A DNA stretch of 32,860 bases from a virus. Both the position numbers and the translations under genes were made by a program. The notes beneath the pieces are model-generated. The model worked only from the letters and a program-made list of their open reading frames with translations. It did not search any database and was not told the origin of the DNA. The DNA lies in the IMG/VR virus record IMGVR_UViG_3300027771_000003, positions 1-32,860 of that record; one strand, written 5' to 3'. Numbering within the stretch: the first letter of the stretch is position 1; every line of letters starts with the position of its first letter. Of this stretch, positions 18,862-32,860 are shown piece after piece.

Positions 18862-21264
18862 ATGAGCTTCGTTAATAATGTAAATTCAACACTCAACGCC
18901 AGCGCAACATCCAGTGCGACTAGCCTGCAAATTGTTAAAGCCGTTAGTCCGTATAACGACCCGCCAGCAAGCGGAAAGATTACGCTAATGGATAGTTTGA
19001 GTAGCCCGACTAAGATTGAGATTATCGCTTATACAGGCCGCACAGATAACACGACTTATTGGACGCTTACTGGTTGCACTAGAGCCTCAGAATCGACTAC
19101 AGCCTCATCGTGGACCGCAGGCGATAACGCCATTCAAGCATTTACAGCGGGTGATGCGGCAGAAATGCTCACCTCAATAAATAACGATGATTGGGTAGGT
19201 ACTGACCTAGCAATAGATAACGGTGGCACAGGTGCTTCTAGCGCCTCTGCTGCTCGTAACAATTTAGGTGTAGAGATCGGTGTTGATGTGCTATCCCCTA
19301 CAGGCGATGGCTCAAGTCTAACAGGCATTAGCTCATCTCCAATTATTAAGCCAACAATTACCAGCCCAACAACAGGGGCAACGGGTACAGCAGTAGCTAT
19401 TAATATTACAGGTAGTGGTTATGCTACTACTGCCCTATTCTCAGGCGCTCACGCTAGTTCTGTACTAGAGATAGCAAGTGATTCAGGGTTCGTAACTATT
19501 GTTGAAACAGAAACATCGGGATTAGAGAGCCTTACTACTAGCTCACTATTGCGACTCACTCAATACTTCGCTCGATTAAAGTACATCAGTGATAATCATA
19601 GTTCAGAGTGGAGTGACACTGTTAGCTTTACAACAATGCAGGCGGGTATAACAACCCCAAGCATTACATCCCCTGCAAACTCAGCAATAGATTTGCTACA
19701 AAAAGTAGACGTAACAACCTCTGCATTCTCAGGATTTGGACACGCAGAAACGCACCTAAGTACAGATTGGCAGATAGCTACTGATGCAGGATTTTCAACT
19801 GTAATAACATCCAGTATTTCTGATTTATCAAATTTAGTGGCATGGACATCTGACAATCTGCAAGTTTCAACAGTGTATTACATTCGGGCTAGGTACAAAT
19901 CTACCAGCTTTACCTCTGAGTATAGCGCAACAGTCAGCTTTACCACTAAGTCTGAATTTACAGCACCTATTGGCACTACAGGCGCACTTGGTTTTTCAGT
20001 TGCACCCTGTTCAGAAAACTTTGCGTCACTTGGCTTATCTGCATTATCAGGAACAAGTACAGCAGGGCATGACGAATACGGCAACTATCAACACACTAAC
20101 GGCTCAATCGTTTGCTGGATGCCAAAAGGCTACTATCGAGTGGGCAATAGTTCAGCAGCTAAATTCTCAACCTACGGCGCTAACACGCTAGAGATTGTTG
20201 GCACAGACACCTATGCCACCGAAGCCTTAGCTAATGTTGATGGGTTTGTTTTACATCGTGTATTCATTGACGGCGGTGCTGAAAAAGCAGGCGTATTTGT
20301 AGATAAATACAGAAACTCTAAGAGCGCCTCAAACGCCAATATTGCGGTCTCTGTTAAAAATGGCAACCCAATAAGCTTGACTAAAAACTTAGGCTACACA
20401 CCATCTTCTACCATGACAGGCTGTACTGGAATCTTCGCCGATGCCATCACGCTGGCTAGAGCGCGTGGCGCAGGCTGGAATAGCCAAAGCATATTTGTAA
20501 CGGGCTGGTTGATGATGGTGTCAGTTGCTCAAGGCCAAAATGCAGCGAATACAACAAACGTGGCTTGGTACGACAGTGGATTAACCACTAACTTTCCGAA
20601 GGGCGCTAATAACTCGTCTTTGCGAGATGTTAACGACACAAGCGTATTGTACACAGCCTCGCCAGATGAAGCAGAAAAGGGCTTAACAGGTTCAGGCGTT
20701 CCCTTTGCTAAAACCACGCACAATGGTGCAAACAATGGCGTTGCTGATGTGAACGGTTTGATGTATGAGGCTTTGATTGGCTACACAAACTATGGCGCAA
20801 ACGCTACAGACACCGCTGACAATACTACCACCACAGCTTACCTGCTAAAAACCACTACAGCTCTGAAAGACTTAACGGCAGGCTGGAATGGGGCAACGGA
20901 TGCGTTTGGTGTGGCGGGAACTTTAGCTACACGCTATGACGCTATCACTGTGCCTATTAGTGTTAATACGACTGGATGGATTTACTGGGGTAGCGGCACA
21001 AATGCAGTGTTTGACTCTGTAGCTACAGGCGTAGGGCGTGATTTGTGTGGTTTCTTACCGAAAGATAATAATGCTTATGATGCAACGGGCATCAATATGT
21101 TAGGTAATGACGGAGCGTATAAAACGAACCGAGCAAACTTGATGCCGCTTGCTTGTGGCCATTGGGGCAACGTTGCGCTAGCGGGCGTTGGCTTTCGCTT
21201 TTTTGCAAACGTTCGCTCGACTGACAACAAGCGTGCTGGCTTTCGGGGCGTGGCCTATGTCTAG
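18862..21264 (+). CDS. Large tail fibre / receptor-binding protein
   Basis: An 800-residue protein. The N-terminus ([20 protein letters not shown]) is followed by [20 protein letters not shown] near residue 118, a motif frequent in tail fibres. Two fibronectin III-like domains lie at about 160-255 and 260-365, each ending in ...VSFTT. The C-terminal 420 residues form a globular region ending AGFRGVAYV, which is typical of the tips of phage fibre proteins and probably contacts the receptor. It is the second large adhesin of this phage, besides the tail-tip protein. Confidence 0.82.
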
Positions 21265-24732: not shown

Positions 24733-25047
24733 CTAGTCGCCCCATCTATCTTTATGTTTAATCGCTTCTGAATCTATCTTATCAGCGTAATCTCTTAATA
24801 GTTTTGTGATTCTGTGAGAACCTTCACCATAGTCATTTGGAATACTATCTAAAACGGTTTGTCTAAGTAGGTCTTCTAATTTCATTATAAAAACATTACC
24901 TGCCTCACAGTTATGATTTTGGCAGAAATCACCCTCTCGCAATACAAAACCAATGGTAGGATCTTCTGATCCAGTAAACCCGCTAGTCAAATCAAAATCA
25001 AAATCAGGGTGTGTTGAACCGCATTCTGTACATTTTGGAAAAGTCAT
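24733..25047 (-). CDS. Small protein with Cys pairs (zinc-ribbon-like)
   Basis: A 104-residue protein, opposite in direction to the lysis genes and ending 12 bases from the holin stop. It starts TFPKCTECGSTHPDFDFD and has a second cluster FCQNHNC near residue 45, so C-x2-C and C-x4-C could bind zinc. The C-terminal half is a charged helix (LRDYADKIDSEAIKHKDRW). I recognise no family. It belongs to a minus-strand group of small accessory genes that may be expressed in the prophage. Confidence 0.62.
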   Translation of the reverse strand: MTFPKCTECGSTHPDFDFDLTSGFTGSEDPTIGFVLREGDFCQNHNCEAGNVFIMKLEDLLRQTVLDSIPNDYGEGSHRITKLLRDYADKIDSEAIKHKDRWGD

Positions 25048-25060
25048 TATTTATTACTCT

Positions 25061-25237
25061 TTATTTATCAGCCGCATCATTTAACGCATCAGTAACCCAC
25101 TCGGCCAGCTTCTTACCTTTAGCAGCGTGAACCCATGCCGCCTTTTCTTGTGGGGTGCAGCGTATCTCAAGGCGTGATGATTTGGTCACTTCTTTGGCGG
25201 CGTTCTTCTGGCCTGTCATGCCATGTTGTTCAATCAT
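25061..25237 (-). CDS. 58-residue protein, probable ribbon-helix-helix type
   Basis: A small gene starting at ATG 25237 and ending 13 bases before the zinc-ribbon gene. The product has SSRLEIRCTPQEKAAWVHAA followed by KKLAEWVTDALNDAAD. A beta strand of the form x-R-x-E-I-R-C-T followed by two helices is typical of ribbon-helix-helix DNA-binding proteins (DUF1778-like or Arc-like). It could be an antitoxin or a local repressor, but no toxin gene is recognised beside it. Confidence 0.6.
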   Translation of the reverse strand: MIEQHGMTGQKNAAKEVTKSSRLEIRCTPQEKAAWVHAAKGKKLAEWVTDALNDAADK

Positions 25238-25254
25238 TATTCACTTCCAGTTCC

Positions 25255-25441
25255 TTAACTAACGCTGGCATCACGTCCCACCTCTTTCTTTGCCCTAGCG
25301 ATTTCAATTTCTGTAAGCCTAGCAGTAAATTCTTCAACCATTACTAAAGCTAGGCTAACTTGGTTATCTGTTACGGCTGTTGGGAGCAGCCTAAGTGCGG
25401 CGCAAAATACCTCATAGTTGTTGGTTGGTTGGTTCGTTCAT
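25255..25441 (-). pseudogene. Small gene interrupted by a frame change in a CCAA repeat
   Basis: ATG 25441 has a good ribosome site (GGAG at 25448-25451), but reading straight gives only MNEPTNQQL before a stop. The frame change lies in a tetranucleotide run, three and a half CCAA units (25421-25434 on the plus strand as TTGG). Removing one unit opens a continuous 60-residue frame ending at 25255, through NYEVFCAALRLLPTAVTD and a charged helix EEFTARLTEIEIARAKKE. So the gene is switched off, frameshifted, or decoded by +1 slippage at the early stop. The function is unknown. Confidence 0.55.
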
Positions 25442-25454
25442 GTGATTCTCCAGT

Positions 25455-25468
25455 GGGGCCGAAGCCCC
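25455..25468 (-). terminator. GGGGC-TTCG-GCCCC stem-loop between two minus-strand genes
   Basis: On the minus strand this reads as a perfect 5-bp G/C stem with a TTCG loop, between the stop of the 84-residue gene and the ribosome site of the interrupted gene. It lacks a T-run, so it may pause transcription or protect an mRNA end. Confidence 0.45.
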
Positions 25469-25479
25469 TATTATTATAT

Positions 25480-25734
25480 TTATAAATTAGCGATTCTTTC
25501 TTTTGCAATTTTATACGTAGCCTTACAAGCAATCTCAAATGAAGGGTATGATTTATCAAACCCGCTATTTCCAAATCGTACAAAATGACTTTTTTCCATA
25601 TAGCCTTTTTGAACGCCTCCGTAAATATCACCAAAATTATCTTCATAAGCTAAAGCCTCGTATGCAATGGGACGGGCATTTTTATCAATCTTATTAGATA
25701 AAACTACTTGGCTAAATCTATTGTTGTCAGTCAT
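25480..25734 (-). CDS. Small protein of unknown function next to attP
   Basis: An 84-residue protein with an AYEALAYEDNFGDIYGGVQK segment and SHFVRFGNSGFDKSYPSFEI. I recognise no domain. It is the first gene of the minus-strand accessory group and probably has its own promoter, since a perfect 12-bp palindrome lies 45 bases before its ATG. The opposite and other frames here are also open, but this one has the most protein-like composition. Confidence 0.6.
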   Translation of the reverse strand: MTDNNRFSQVVLSNKIDKNARPIAYEALAYEDNFGDIYGGVQKGYMEKSHFVRFGNSGFDKSYPSFEIACKATYKIAKERIANL

Positions 25735-25887: not shown

Positions 25888-26122
25888 GTTCCGAATATAC
25901 AGTGGTCGTAAATTATAAAAGTGAGTTATTACAGGCTAAATAATTCTAATTTTATTCGGATATACTGCGTTAAGTCTTTGTTTTATATCAATAATGAATC
26001 AGATTGCAAATCCGCTAACCCCGGTTCGATTCCGGGTTCGGCCTCCATTCTCACGCTGCTTACAGCGATAGTGCATACTAACTTCCGAATAGGTCCGAAT
26101 AAAGTTCCGAATATACAGTGGT
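25888..26122. other. attP: Phage attachment region (attP) with integrase arm-type repeats
   Basis: This lies in a gene-free stretch (25735-26144) next to the integrase. The core is the 3' half of tRNA-Cys at 26002-26047. Flanking it are two identical 19-bp copies of GTTCCGAATATACAGTGGT, at 25888-25906 and 26104-26122. A related TTCCGAAT lies at 26083-26090, and a 10-bp inverted pair TTTATTCGGA (25951-25960) and TCCGAATAAA (26094-26103) is also present. Repeated sites on both sides of a core are what a lambda-type integrase uses as arm sites. The part from 25735 to 25887 holds only the palindrome noted separately. Confidence 0.82.
26002..26047 (+). other. 3' half of tRNA-Cys(GCA), attP core
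   Basis: Bases run from the anticodon loop TTGCAAA (26004-26010; anticodon GCA at 26006-26008) through a perfect T arm, CCCGG-TTCGATT-CCGGG (26020-26036), the acceptor strand TTCGGCC (26037-26043), T, and CCA (26045-26047). No D arm or 5' acceptor strand precedes it and the anticodon stem is mismatched, so it is not a working tRNA. It would replace the 3' end of the host gene on integration, keeping that tRNA intact. Confidence 0.88.
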
Positions 26123-26144
26123 GTATATCCGTACAGTTAGGGCT

Positions 26145-29356: not shown

Positions 29357-29385
29357 AATGTTAGCACACTGACATTAGAAGGCAA
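29357..29385 (-). promoter_or_regulatory. Promoter with overlapping operator for the recombination operon
   Basis: On the minus strand, TTGCCT (-35, 29380-29385) and TAACAT (-10, 29358-29363) are 16 bases apart. An imperfect 20-bp palindrome, AATGTTAGCACACTGACATT on the plus strand (29357-29376), covers the spacer and -10 box. It shares the AATGT/ACATT half-sites with the CI-Cro intergenic region, so the CI repressor probably shuts off this operon in the lysogen. Confidence 0.72.
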
Positions 29386-29695: not shown

Positions 29696-30328
29696 TTATT
29701 CGGCTACATAACTGCCGACTATAACTCCTATAATGTGTGTATTTTCACCACACTGCTGAATCGGATAGGCTGTATTTAAAGGCTTCAAATACCTTATGCC
29801 GCCGTCTACCACATATTCTCTAAAGACAGATTCCATTGTGTCTTTATCAATTGCTATTACTCGATCCCCTGTTTTTGGTTTTTTTGATGGGTCAACGAAG
29901 ATAAGCGCACCCATAGGATACGACCTACCGTTACTCCTTGTCATCACATCGTTTTGCACCTCTAACGCAAACGAATTATCGGAAATATCATGGGGGCAAC
30001 CGACCCACTGATAGCTTTGATCCATGCGAAAAGTTCCTTCTACTAACTTCGCCAAAGATGCCCAACTTATTATTGGTGCTTTCTTCGTAATGGGTTGAAG
30101 TTTCAATCCAGCCAGTAGCCCGAGCTTGTCATCTGACAGTAGTTGTTCAGTTGAGTACCCAAATGCCTTTGCTAGTGAAACAAGTGTGTCGCCTTTAACC
30201 TCGGCTAGAGGGTTAGTTTCTATTTGGGCTATTCGCCCACGACTTAAATTTGTTTTTTTGGAAAGGTCTAGCTGTGTCCACCCTTGTTCTTTTCGTAAGC
30301 CTTTAACTCTTTTACCGAGGTCTAACAT
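29696..30328 (-). CDS. CI-like repressor with degenerate cleavage residues
   Basis: A 210-residue lysogeny repressor. Residues 5-60 are a Cro/CI-type helix-turn-helix (RVKGLRKEQGWTQLDLSKKT). Residues 84-210 are an S24/LexA-like C-terminal domain, recognisable from GALIFVDPSKKPKTGDRVIA and YLKPLNTAYPI. But the usual catalytic D-S-M is N-D-V-M (V128) and the catalytic lysine position holds R170; the 42-residue spacing shows both are at the correct sites. The Ala-Gly cut site expected after PIISW is also absent. It may therefore not self-cleave upon DNA damage. ATG 30328 follows CAGGA. Confidence 0.9.
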   Translation of the reverse strand: MLDLGKRVKGLRKEQGWTQLDLSKKTNLSRGRIAQIETNPLAEVKGDTLVSLAKAFGYSTEQLLSDDKLGLLAGLKLQPITKKAPIISWASLAKLVEGTFRMDQSYQWVGCPHDISDNSFALEVQNDVMTRSNGRSYPMGALIFVDPSKKPKTGDRVIAIDKDTMESVFREYVVDGGIRYLKPLNTAYPIQQCGENTHIIGVIVGSYVAE

Positions 30329-30350: not shown

Positions 30351-30417
30351 ATGTTAGCAAGGTTACATTAATTAAGTGTGCTTGTGGTTGACACCTAATG
30401 TATCTTACAGTAACATT
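30351..30417. promoter_or_regulatory. Operator region between repressor and cro
   Basis: Two imperfect palindromes of the AATGT/ACATT type are visible. One is at 30351-30368, starting ATGTTAG and ending GTTACAT; its first part is the complement of a TAACAT -10 box for leftward transcription of the repressor. The other, of 21 bases, is at 30397-30417, starting AATGT and ending AACATT; it covers the -10 box of the cro promoter. The repressor or Cro should bind here. Confidence 0.68.
30388..30416 (+). promoter_or_regulatory. Rightward early promoter for cro and replication genes
   Basis: A consensus -35 TTGACA (30388-30393), a 17-base spacer and -10 TAACAT (30411-30416). Transcription should start near 30422-30424, at or next to the cro ATG. 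Confidence 0.85.
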
Positions 30418-30423
30418 CCTTAC

Positions 30424-30609
30424 ATGAAAATACTTAAATCAGAAGCAATTGCTACTTTCGGTGGCGTTGTAAAGCTAGCAGACGCTCTGGGGATTCGACA
30501 TAGCGCGGTGTGCCAGTGGAAGGAATTTGTTCCACCACTTCGCGCCTATCAGATTGACGAGCTTCTAAATCAAATAAATCGAACTGCTCCGTCAAAGGTT
30601 CCCTTATGA
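30424..30609 (+). CDS. cro: Cro-like repressor
   Basis: A 61-residue DNA-binding protein. ILKSEAIATFGGVVKLADAL, then GIRHSAVCQW, is the pattern of Cro-family helix-turn-helix proteins; FVPPLRAYQID follows as in other members. It is divergent from the CI-like gene and would oppose it. I chose ATG 30424: no ribosome site precedes it, and the promoter places the message start at about that base, so the mRNA may be leaderless. An upstream in-frame start at 30376 lies before the promoter's -10 box and is therefore excluded. The stop overlaps the following gene (ATGA). Confidence 0.88.
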   Translation: MKILKSEAIATFGGVVKLADALGIRHSAVCQWKEFVPPLRAYQIDELLNQINRTAPSKVPL

Positions 30610-32605: not shown

Positions 32606-32860
32606 GTGAAGTTATATTCAGCGTTGATAACAAAAACGTGTCGAGCATGATCCAGCAGATTGTTCAAATGATTAACAAGGGTCTGTTTATTGGCCCAGTG
32701 GAAGTTGTTCTAAGACGGGCAGCTAGATCATTAAGTCAAAACAAAAAGCTTTGGCCCATGTTAAACGATGTGCAAAAACAGGTTGATTGGTATGGCGATA
32801 ATCTCGACACCGATGATTGGAAAGTCATGTTCATGGCTAGCCTACATAAGCAGCGTTCTG
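32602..32860 (+). CDS. ninB: NinB-family recombination protein, 5' part
   Basis: The first 52 codons before the repeat end encode SEVIFSVDNKNVSSMIQQIV and the following segment, leading into LSQNKKLWPM; the frame continues into the part listed at 1-290 once the circle is closed. The full protein would be 142 residues. ATG 32602 overlaps the stop of the preceding 8-residue frame. Confidence 0.88.
   Translation, partial: MSEVIFSVDNKNVSSMIQQIVQMINKGLFIGPVEVVLRRAARSLSQNKKLWPMLNDVQKQVDWYGDNLDTDDWKVMFMASLHKQRS
32741..32860. repeat. Right copy of 120-bp terminal direct repeat
   Basis: Identical to 1-120, base for base. See the left copy for interpretation. Confidence 0.95.

Follow-up and report, generated by a model that had tools for sequence, protein, structure and literature searches.

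Self-cleavage of lambda CI and LexA, which proceeds without RecA at alkaline pH, depends on a Ser/Lys dyad, and most models and prophage-induction screens take repressors with an S24 domain to be SOS-responsive. The CI-like repressor encoded in the 32,860 bp viral sequence analysed here (IMG/VR record IMGVR_UViG_3300027771_000003; hereafter the window) has an S24 fold from which serine, lysine and cut site are all missing, and this raises the question of how a prophage with such a repressor would leave lysogeny. A first-pass annotation made from the sequence had described these losses and proposed that the prophage might not respond to SOS by autoproteolysis and would need an antirepressor, a partner or some other signal.

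An S24-fold repressor without its catalytic residues

The open reading frame is a lambda/P22-type repressor with a helix-turn-helix (HTH) and a Peptidase_S24 domain (Table 1). Pfam searches give an N-terminal HTH_3 match (1.4e-11) and a Peptidase_S24 match (1.2e-14, residues 107-204) that is the only S24 domain in the whole window. An AlphaFold2 model computed from a 26-sequence alignment adopts the S24 fold (pLDDT 82), and its top PDB matches are lambda CI and the lambda CI C-terminal domain, with a TMt of 0.82 against the latter (1kca). The clear C-terminal S24 fold reported in the first-pass annotation is thus borne out.

Table 1. Features of the window that bear on repression and induction.
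Feature	Position	Strand	Basis or remark
CI-like repressor, 210 aa	29696-30328	-	translation, Pfam, phmmer
HTH of the CI-like repressor	residues ~4-66, within 29696-30328	-	
S24-fold C-terminal domain without catalytic residues	residues ~81-208, within 29696-30328	-	
Residues 85-95, PIISWASLAKL, place of the cleavage loop	30044-30076	-	alignment with P22 C2
V128 codon, site of the nucleophilic serine (lambda Ser149)	29945-29947	-	alignments
R170 codon, site of the general-base lysine (lambda Lys192)	29819-29821	-	alignments
Small orphan gene, 69 aa	29481-29690	-	ATG 5 nt past the cI stop codon
Operator-like palindrome ATGTTAGCAAGGTTACATTA (OR type)	30351-30370		cI-cro interval, conserved in the clade
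Matching palindrome ATGTTAGCACACTGACATTA (OL type)	29358-29377		before the leftward genes
cro-like gene, divergent from cI	30424-30609	+	P22_Cro, 9e-17
Palindrome TTGTACGTACAA	25779-25790		overlaps the promoter of the left-end three-gene group

A single gap-poor phmmer alignment with the lambda CI structures places V128 opposite Ser149 and R170 opposite Lys192, and MAFFT alignment with P22 C2 and the CI of Hafnia phage yong1 gives the same placement. The two sites are 42 residues apart in the window repressor and 43 in lambda CI. The Ala-Gly scissile bond is also absent, the window sequence standing against PLISWVSAGQW in P22 C2. Both substitutions, their codon positions, the lack of Ala-Gly after PIISW and the spacing argument for a secure alignment had been put forward in the first-pass annotation, and all of them hold; the comparison with S24 repressors that it proposed as a check finds no Ser or Lys at the catalytic sites. 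Because the chemistry of the Ser/Lys dyad is established for lambda CI and LexA, RecA-stimulated self-cleavage would be lost, and with dyad and cut site both gone it follows as a logical consequence that removal of the repressor would need a factor from outside.

The surroundings are those of a lambdoid immunity region. With an exact 120-bp direct repeat at the two ends (1-120 and 32741-32860), the genome is probably complete, at ~32.7 kb. The cro-like gene and the replication genes, including an O-like gene, stand in lambdoid order, and ERF- and SSB-like genes are presumably present in the window as well. The cores of ATGTTAGCAAGGTTACATTA and ATGTTAGCACACTGACATTA are conserved among relatives, as is the position of ATGTTAGCACACTGACATTA, and the two palindromes are likely the OR and OL operators. 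The window also contains an integrase gene. We take the segment 25985-26050 (...GATTGCAAATCCGCTAACCCCGGTTCGATTCCGGGTTCGGCCTCCA) to resemble a tRNA-Cys 3' half of gammaproteobacterial type, for which the corresponding attB 3' half would presumably be ...TTGCAAATCCGCTAACCCCGGTTCGATTCCGGGTTCGGCCTCCA, and repeats CACTGTATATTCGGAA occur on both sides of it; this is probably attP with integrase arm sites. The integrase together with the tRNA-Cys-like attP segment argues that the phage is temperate.

Searches of IMG/VR with the repressor returned 25 close relatives, a second ring at 60-66% identity and more at 57-60%, and the window clade as considered here comprises 21 distinct proteins that are 57-100% identical. 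All 21 have Val or Leu at the serine site, Arg at the lysine site and no Ala-Gly. Among the relatives, the serine-site codons are GTG, GTC, GTT, GTA, CTG, CTT and CTA, and those at the lysine site are AGA, AGG, CGA, CGG and CGT. The HTH domain of the repressor has a median dN/dS of 0.08 and the C-terminal domain one of 0.14; by this measure the latter is under purifying selection, and a second contig encodes a protein identical to the window CI. Because the residues are kept while the codons drift and dN/dS is low, this is a maintained state and not the decay of one phage; the same observations, together with the identical protein elsewhere, rule out a sequencing error or a pseudogene. Judged from these comparisons, the loss of serine, lysine and cut bond is maintained by selection across this clade of marine temperate phages.

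A small gene behind cI and the stages of motif decay

In all clade members with sequence in this region, the cI stop codon is followed at a distance of 2-33 nt by the start of an open reading frame of 66-71 codons. The first-pass annotation was confined to 29696-30328, which is correct for the repressor, and the small gene of the window lies outside that interval and went unmentioned. From its position it is probably carried on the same transcript as cI. Its dN/dS of 0.08-0.3 in most close pairs led us to reject a non-coding element, and the absence of a hydrophobic segment led us to reject a membrane protein of the RexB kind. The protein is marked by the motif N-x-SKMRCKKLAWM-x-E-x-x-IWxW...TD...P, with QGPP or NGPN at its C-terminus. 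It has no family match in Pfam, NCBIfam or PHROGs, and tblastn with it against 50,697 phage records (E up to 1) and 72,556 plasmid records yields no match. Structure prediction gives a pLDDT of 54 and no confident fold.

A search with the small gene yielded 59 loci, in most of which a repressor gene lies directly upstream. These repressors include those of the window clade, an S24 subfamily in which Gln stands in for the serine (L130), a subfamily in which Ser and Lys are present and Ala-Gly is absent (L118), and a LexA-like S24 repressor whose catalytic sites read DDAM and IRR (L121, L124 and L125); in the families typified by L126 and L137 the S24 match is weak or absent. We note that the repressors of L121 (2320-2964) and L124 (2319-2963) have Ala for serine and Arg for lysine with the small gene behind them, probably a separate, independent loss of the catalytic residues. 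Elsewhere, the small gene itself occupies the cI position (L135, L143 and L147), followed in L135 and L147 by a repressor-like gene without S24, or it has no adjacent repressor (L142, L146, L154-156 and L169). An integrase is encoded on 9 of the 14 contigs with the small gene in such unusual settings. The 63.7 kb L142 contig carries the small gene twice, one copy with an internal stop, and has an integrase and no S24 repressor.

A tree of the S24 C-terminal domain was built from 75 distinct domains, 33 with the small gene behind them and 42 without, under a sampling guided by sequence similarity. A branch with 100/99 support separates the 33 from the rest, and on this tree the small gene was gained once and serine was lost separately at least twice. 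Within the 33, L179/L254 retain Ser, Lys and Ala-Gly with the small gene behind; six domains keep Ser and Lys and have lost Ala-Gly; four have the serine replaced (by Gln in three and Leu in one) and keep Lys; and neither residue is left in the 21 members of the window clade. Outgroup repressors without the small gene kept Ser and Lys in 42 of 42 sampled and Ala-Gly in 39. In L303, L304 and L305 the S24 repressors have Ser and Lys intact, and Ala-Ala instead of Ala-Gly. The distribution would fit an order of loss in which the cut site went first and the catalytic residues afterwards. A link between the small gene and motif decay is suggestive, with one gain, similarity-led sampling and, in L179, the gene together with an intact motif. 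The case for a strict tie between the small gene and dead repressors is weakened by the intact L179, which came from a terminase-anchored sample, and by the contexts without an S24 repressor.

Comparison with known repressors and the proposed mechanism

Relative to P22 C2 and lambda CI, which are classed as self-cleaving in MEROPS S24, the window shares the HTH and S24 domains, the divergent cro, the replication genes and the paired operators, and differs in the absence of Ser, Lys and Ala-Gly from a repressor for which self-cleavage should be impossible. The closest cultured repressors are 33-36% identical to the window CI. A direct precedent is the CB repressor of N15 (P0002: ...YALTVGNQIQRNYQPGD...ITIQRL...), whose S24 domain likewise lacks the dyad, Gln occupying both catalytic positions, and which has been shown to be non-proteolytic (PMC10432266). 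The two proteins are not closely related, their catalytic-site substitutions differ, and no small gene lies behind N15 CB; N15 also differs in being a prophage in linear plasmid form whose antirepressor gene is known; the title of a 2007 paper by Mardanov and Ravin (cited in PMC4488713) places the antirepressor in the SOS regulon. The Gifsy repressors GfoR and GtgR are again non-cleaved repressors of lambdoid prophages, 136 aa long and described as lacking an autocleavage motif, and are inactivated by LexA-controlled antirepressors (PMC3121763); at 210 aa and with an S24 domain, the window CI is not of this short type.

Non-cleaving S24-fold repressors are thus already known from N15. The window clade, the preserved intermediates and the orphan companion gene, by contrast, had no counterpart in the searched libraries, collections and papers; our literature search found no paper dedicated to CI proteins with a dead S24 dyad. 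Annotation pipelines label the window CI a peptidase, and predictions of SOS-inducible prophages that are based on domains would be wrong for this marine phage clade. The preserved stages of loss and the companion gene make the replacement of a self-cleaving switch testable with natural proteins.

The account that we consider probable is that the window CI is a functional repressor of the lambda/P22 type in which self-cleavage has been abandoned, and that lytic growth is started by an outside protein. In dimeric or higher oligomeric form, CI would bind the OR and OL palindromes and repress both early promoters, and it would be naturally Ind-minus, resistant to inactivation by RecA filaments. 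By analogy with N15 and Gifsy, the lytic start would most likely come about by antirepression, through a phage protein that binds CI, and inactivation by a partner protein is favoured because of these two precedents. The small gene is the strongest lead obtained; its product is the nearest candidate to act on CI, and it could be an inactivator, a stabiliser or unrelated; we regard the gene as a candidate modulator that may equally be an ordinary accessory gene. Counting against this account, no antirepressor was identified, and the small gene has locations with no repressor beside it (L142, L146, L154-156 and L169) and is also found behind the intact repressors of L179/L254.

Alternative explanations

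The main rival for the role of the small gene, drawn by analogy, is that it is a Hex- or Rex-like accessory gene expressed in the lysogen with cI, which would serve exclusion or damp RecA-driven cleavage; the protease site would then have become purposeless and decayed, and the prophage would leave mainly by chance loss of repression. We consider this possible, at clearly less than an even chance. Like hex and rexAB, the small gene lies on the same strand as cI, directly behind it and upstream of OL, from which its co-expression would follow by position, and 434 Hex is made from the PRM transcript and blocks RecA-mediated cleavage of the 434 and P22 repressors (PMC3564112). The graded decay in the small-gene clade, from an intact motif in L179 through loss of Ala-Gly to loss of Ser and Lys, would suit this explanation, as would the presence of the small gene in lysogeny regions without S24 repressors. 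Against it, Hex has 158 aa and the small protein 69, and tblastn of the phage collection detected no relatives of the small gene; with a single gain on the repressor tree, its association with decay may also be due to chance.

A more ambitious and rather doubtful proposal is that the small gene represents a new class of lysogeny-switch partner that controls removal or stability of the repressor, that its arrival freed self-cleavage to decay in the order Ala-Gly, Ser, Lys, and that it also travels with unrelated repressors that are dead or protease-free.

Also unlikely is an SOS-controlled antirepressor of the kind known from N15 and Gifsy, encoded away from the immunity region, for which the candidates would be three small genes at 24733-25734. 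The position of this left-end group outside the immunity region resembles that in Gifsy (PMC3121763). The group is preceded by the strong promoter TTTACA-17-TACAAT (- strand), which the perfect palindrome TTGTACGTACAA overlaps, and both are conserved in L021, L022, L024 and L026 even though these have a different gene at the head of the operon. One member (25061-25237, - strand) encodes a 58-aa ribbon-helix-helix-like protein that is 74-87% conserved in the otherwise divergent L009, L021 and L024. On the other side, TTGTACGTACAA differs from the gammaproteobacterial LexA box and the candidates have no sequence relation to known antirepressors; the left-end group as the place of an induction gene is speculative. 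The complete genome contains no CTGTN8ACAG site, and no perfect LexA box occurs in the relatives either. A weight matrix of E. coli sites, whose motif may differ from that of the host, gives a lone near-consensus site at 19797, inside a tail-fibre ORF. LexA-like palindromes also occur near the integrase stop, at 26119-26138 in the window, 11174-11193 in L024, 10624 in L022 and 11518 in L026; they score 13-24 with the matrix, overlap repeats resembling integrase arm sites and are probably arm-type sites, with an SOS role possible. No convincing LexA site thus stands in front of a candidate gene, the perfect box being absent and the matrix sites lying only in the tail-fibre ORF and beside the integrase. 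The search for an antirepressor that the first-pass annotation had recommended identified none convincingly in the window; a search of genome contigs for the host gave HTH matches only. The interpretation in the first-pass annotation is supported for the repressor, with dyad and cut site gone and fold intact, whereas the antirepressor, partner or other signal would be needed by logic, no antirepressor having been identified.

Removal of CI by another protease is improbable, whether by cutting in trans of the host LexA or UmuD type, by ClpXP or by an ImmA-like enzyme. UmuD shows that cutting in trans can occur in principle, and the repressor of ICEBs1 is inactivated by a protease of the ImmA type. 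Cutting in trans by an S24 protease would need the cleavage bond, which is also gone here, and no ImmA-like gene was noticed among the genes examined. That other residues restore self-cleavage, or that the gene is a pseudogene or an assembly error, is extremely improbable, since nothing was found in favour of it, the site offers no candidate nucleophile, and the clade-wide conservation, codon drift, low dN/dS and identical protein on a second contig all speak against it.

Finally, the small gene family (A3) has a few middle and C-terminal versions, such as ...QKQNLMGGKFxEDxEPQGPP, ...FMQTNFGNNQNEQCQQGPP and ...FGxNKFDxAQGPP, which appear interchangeably on different N-terminal parts in what looks like mosaic exchange.
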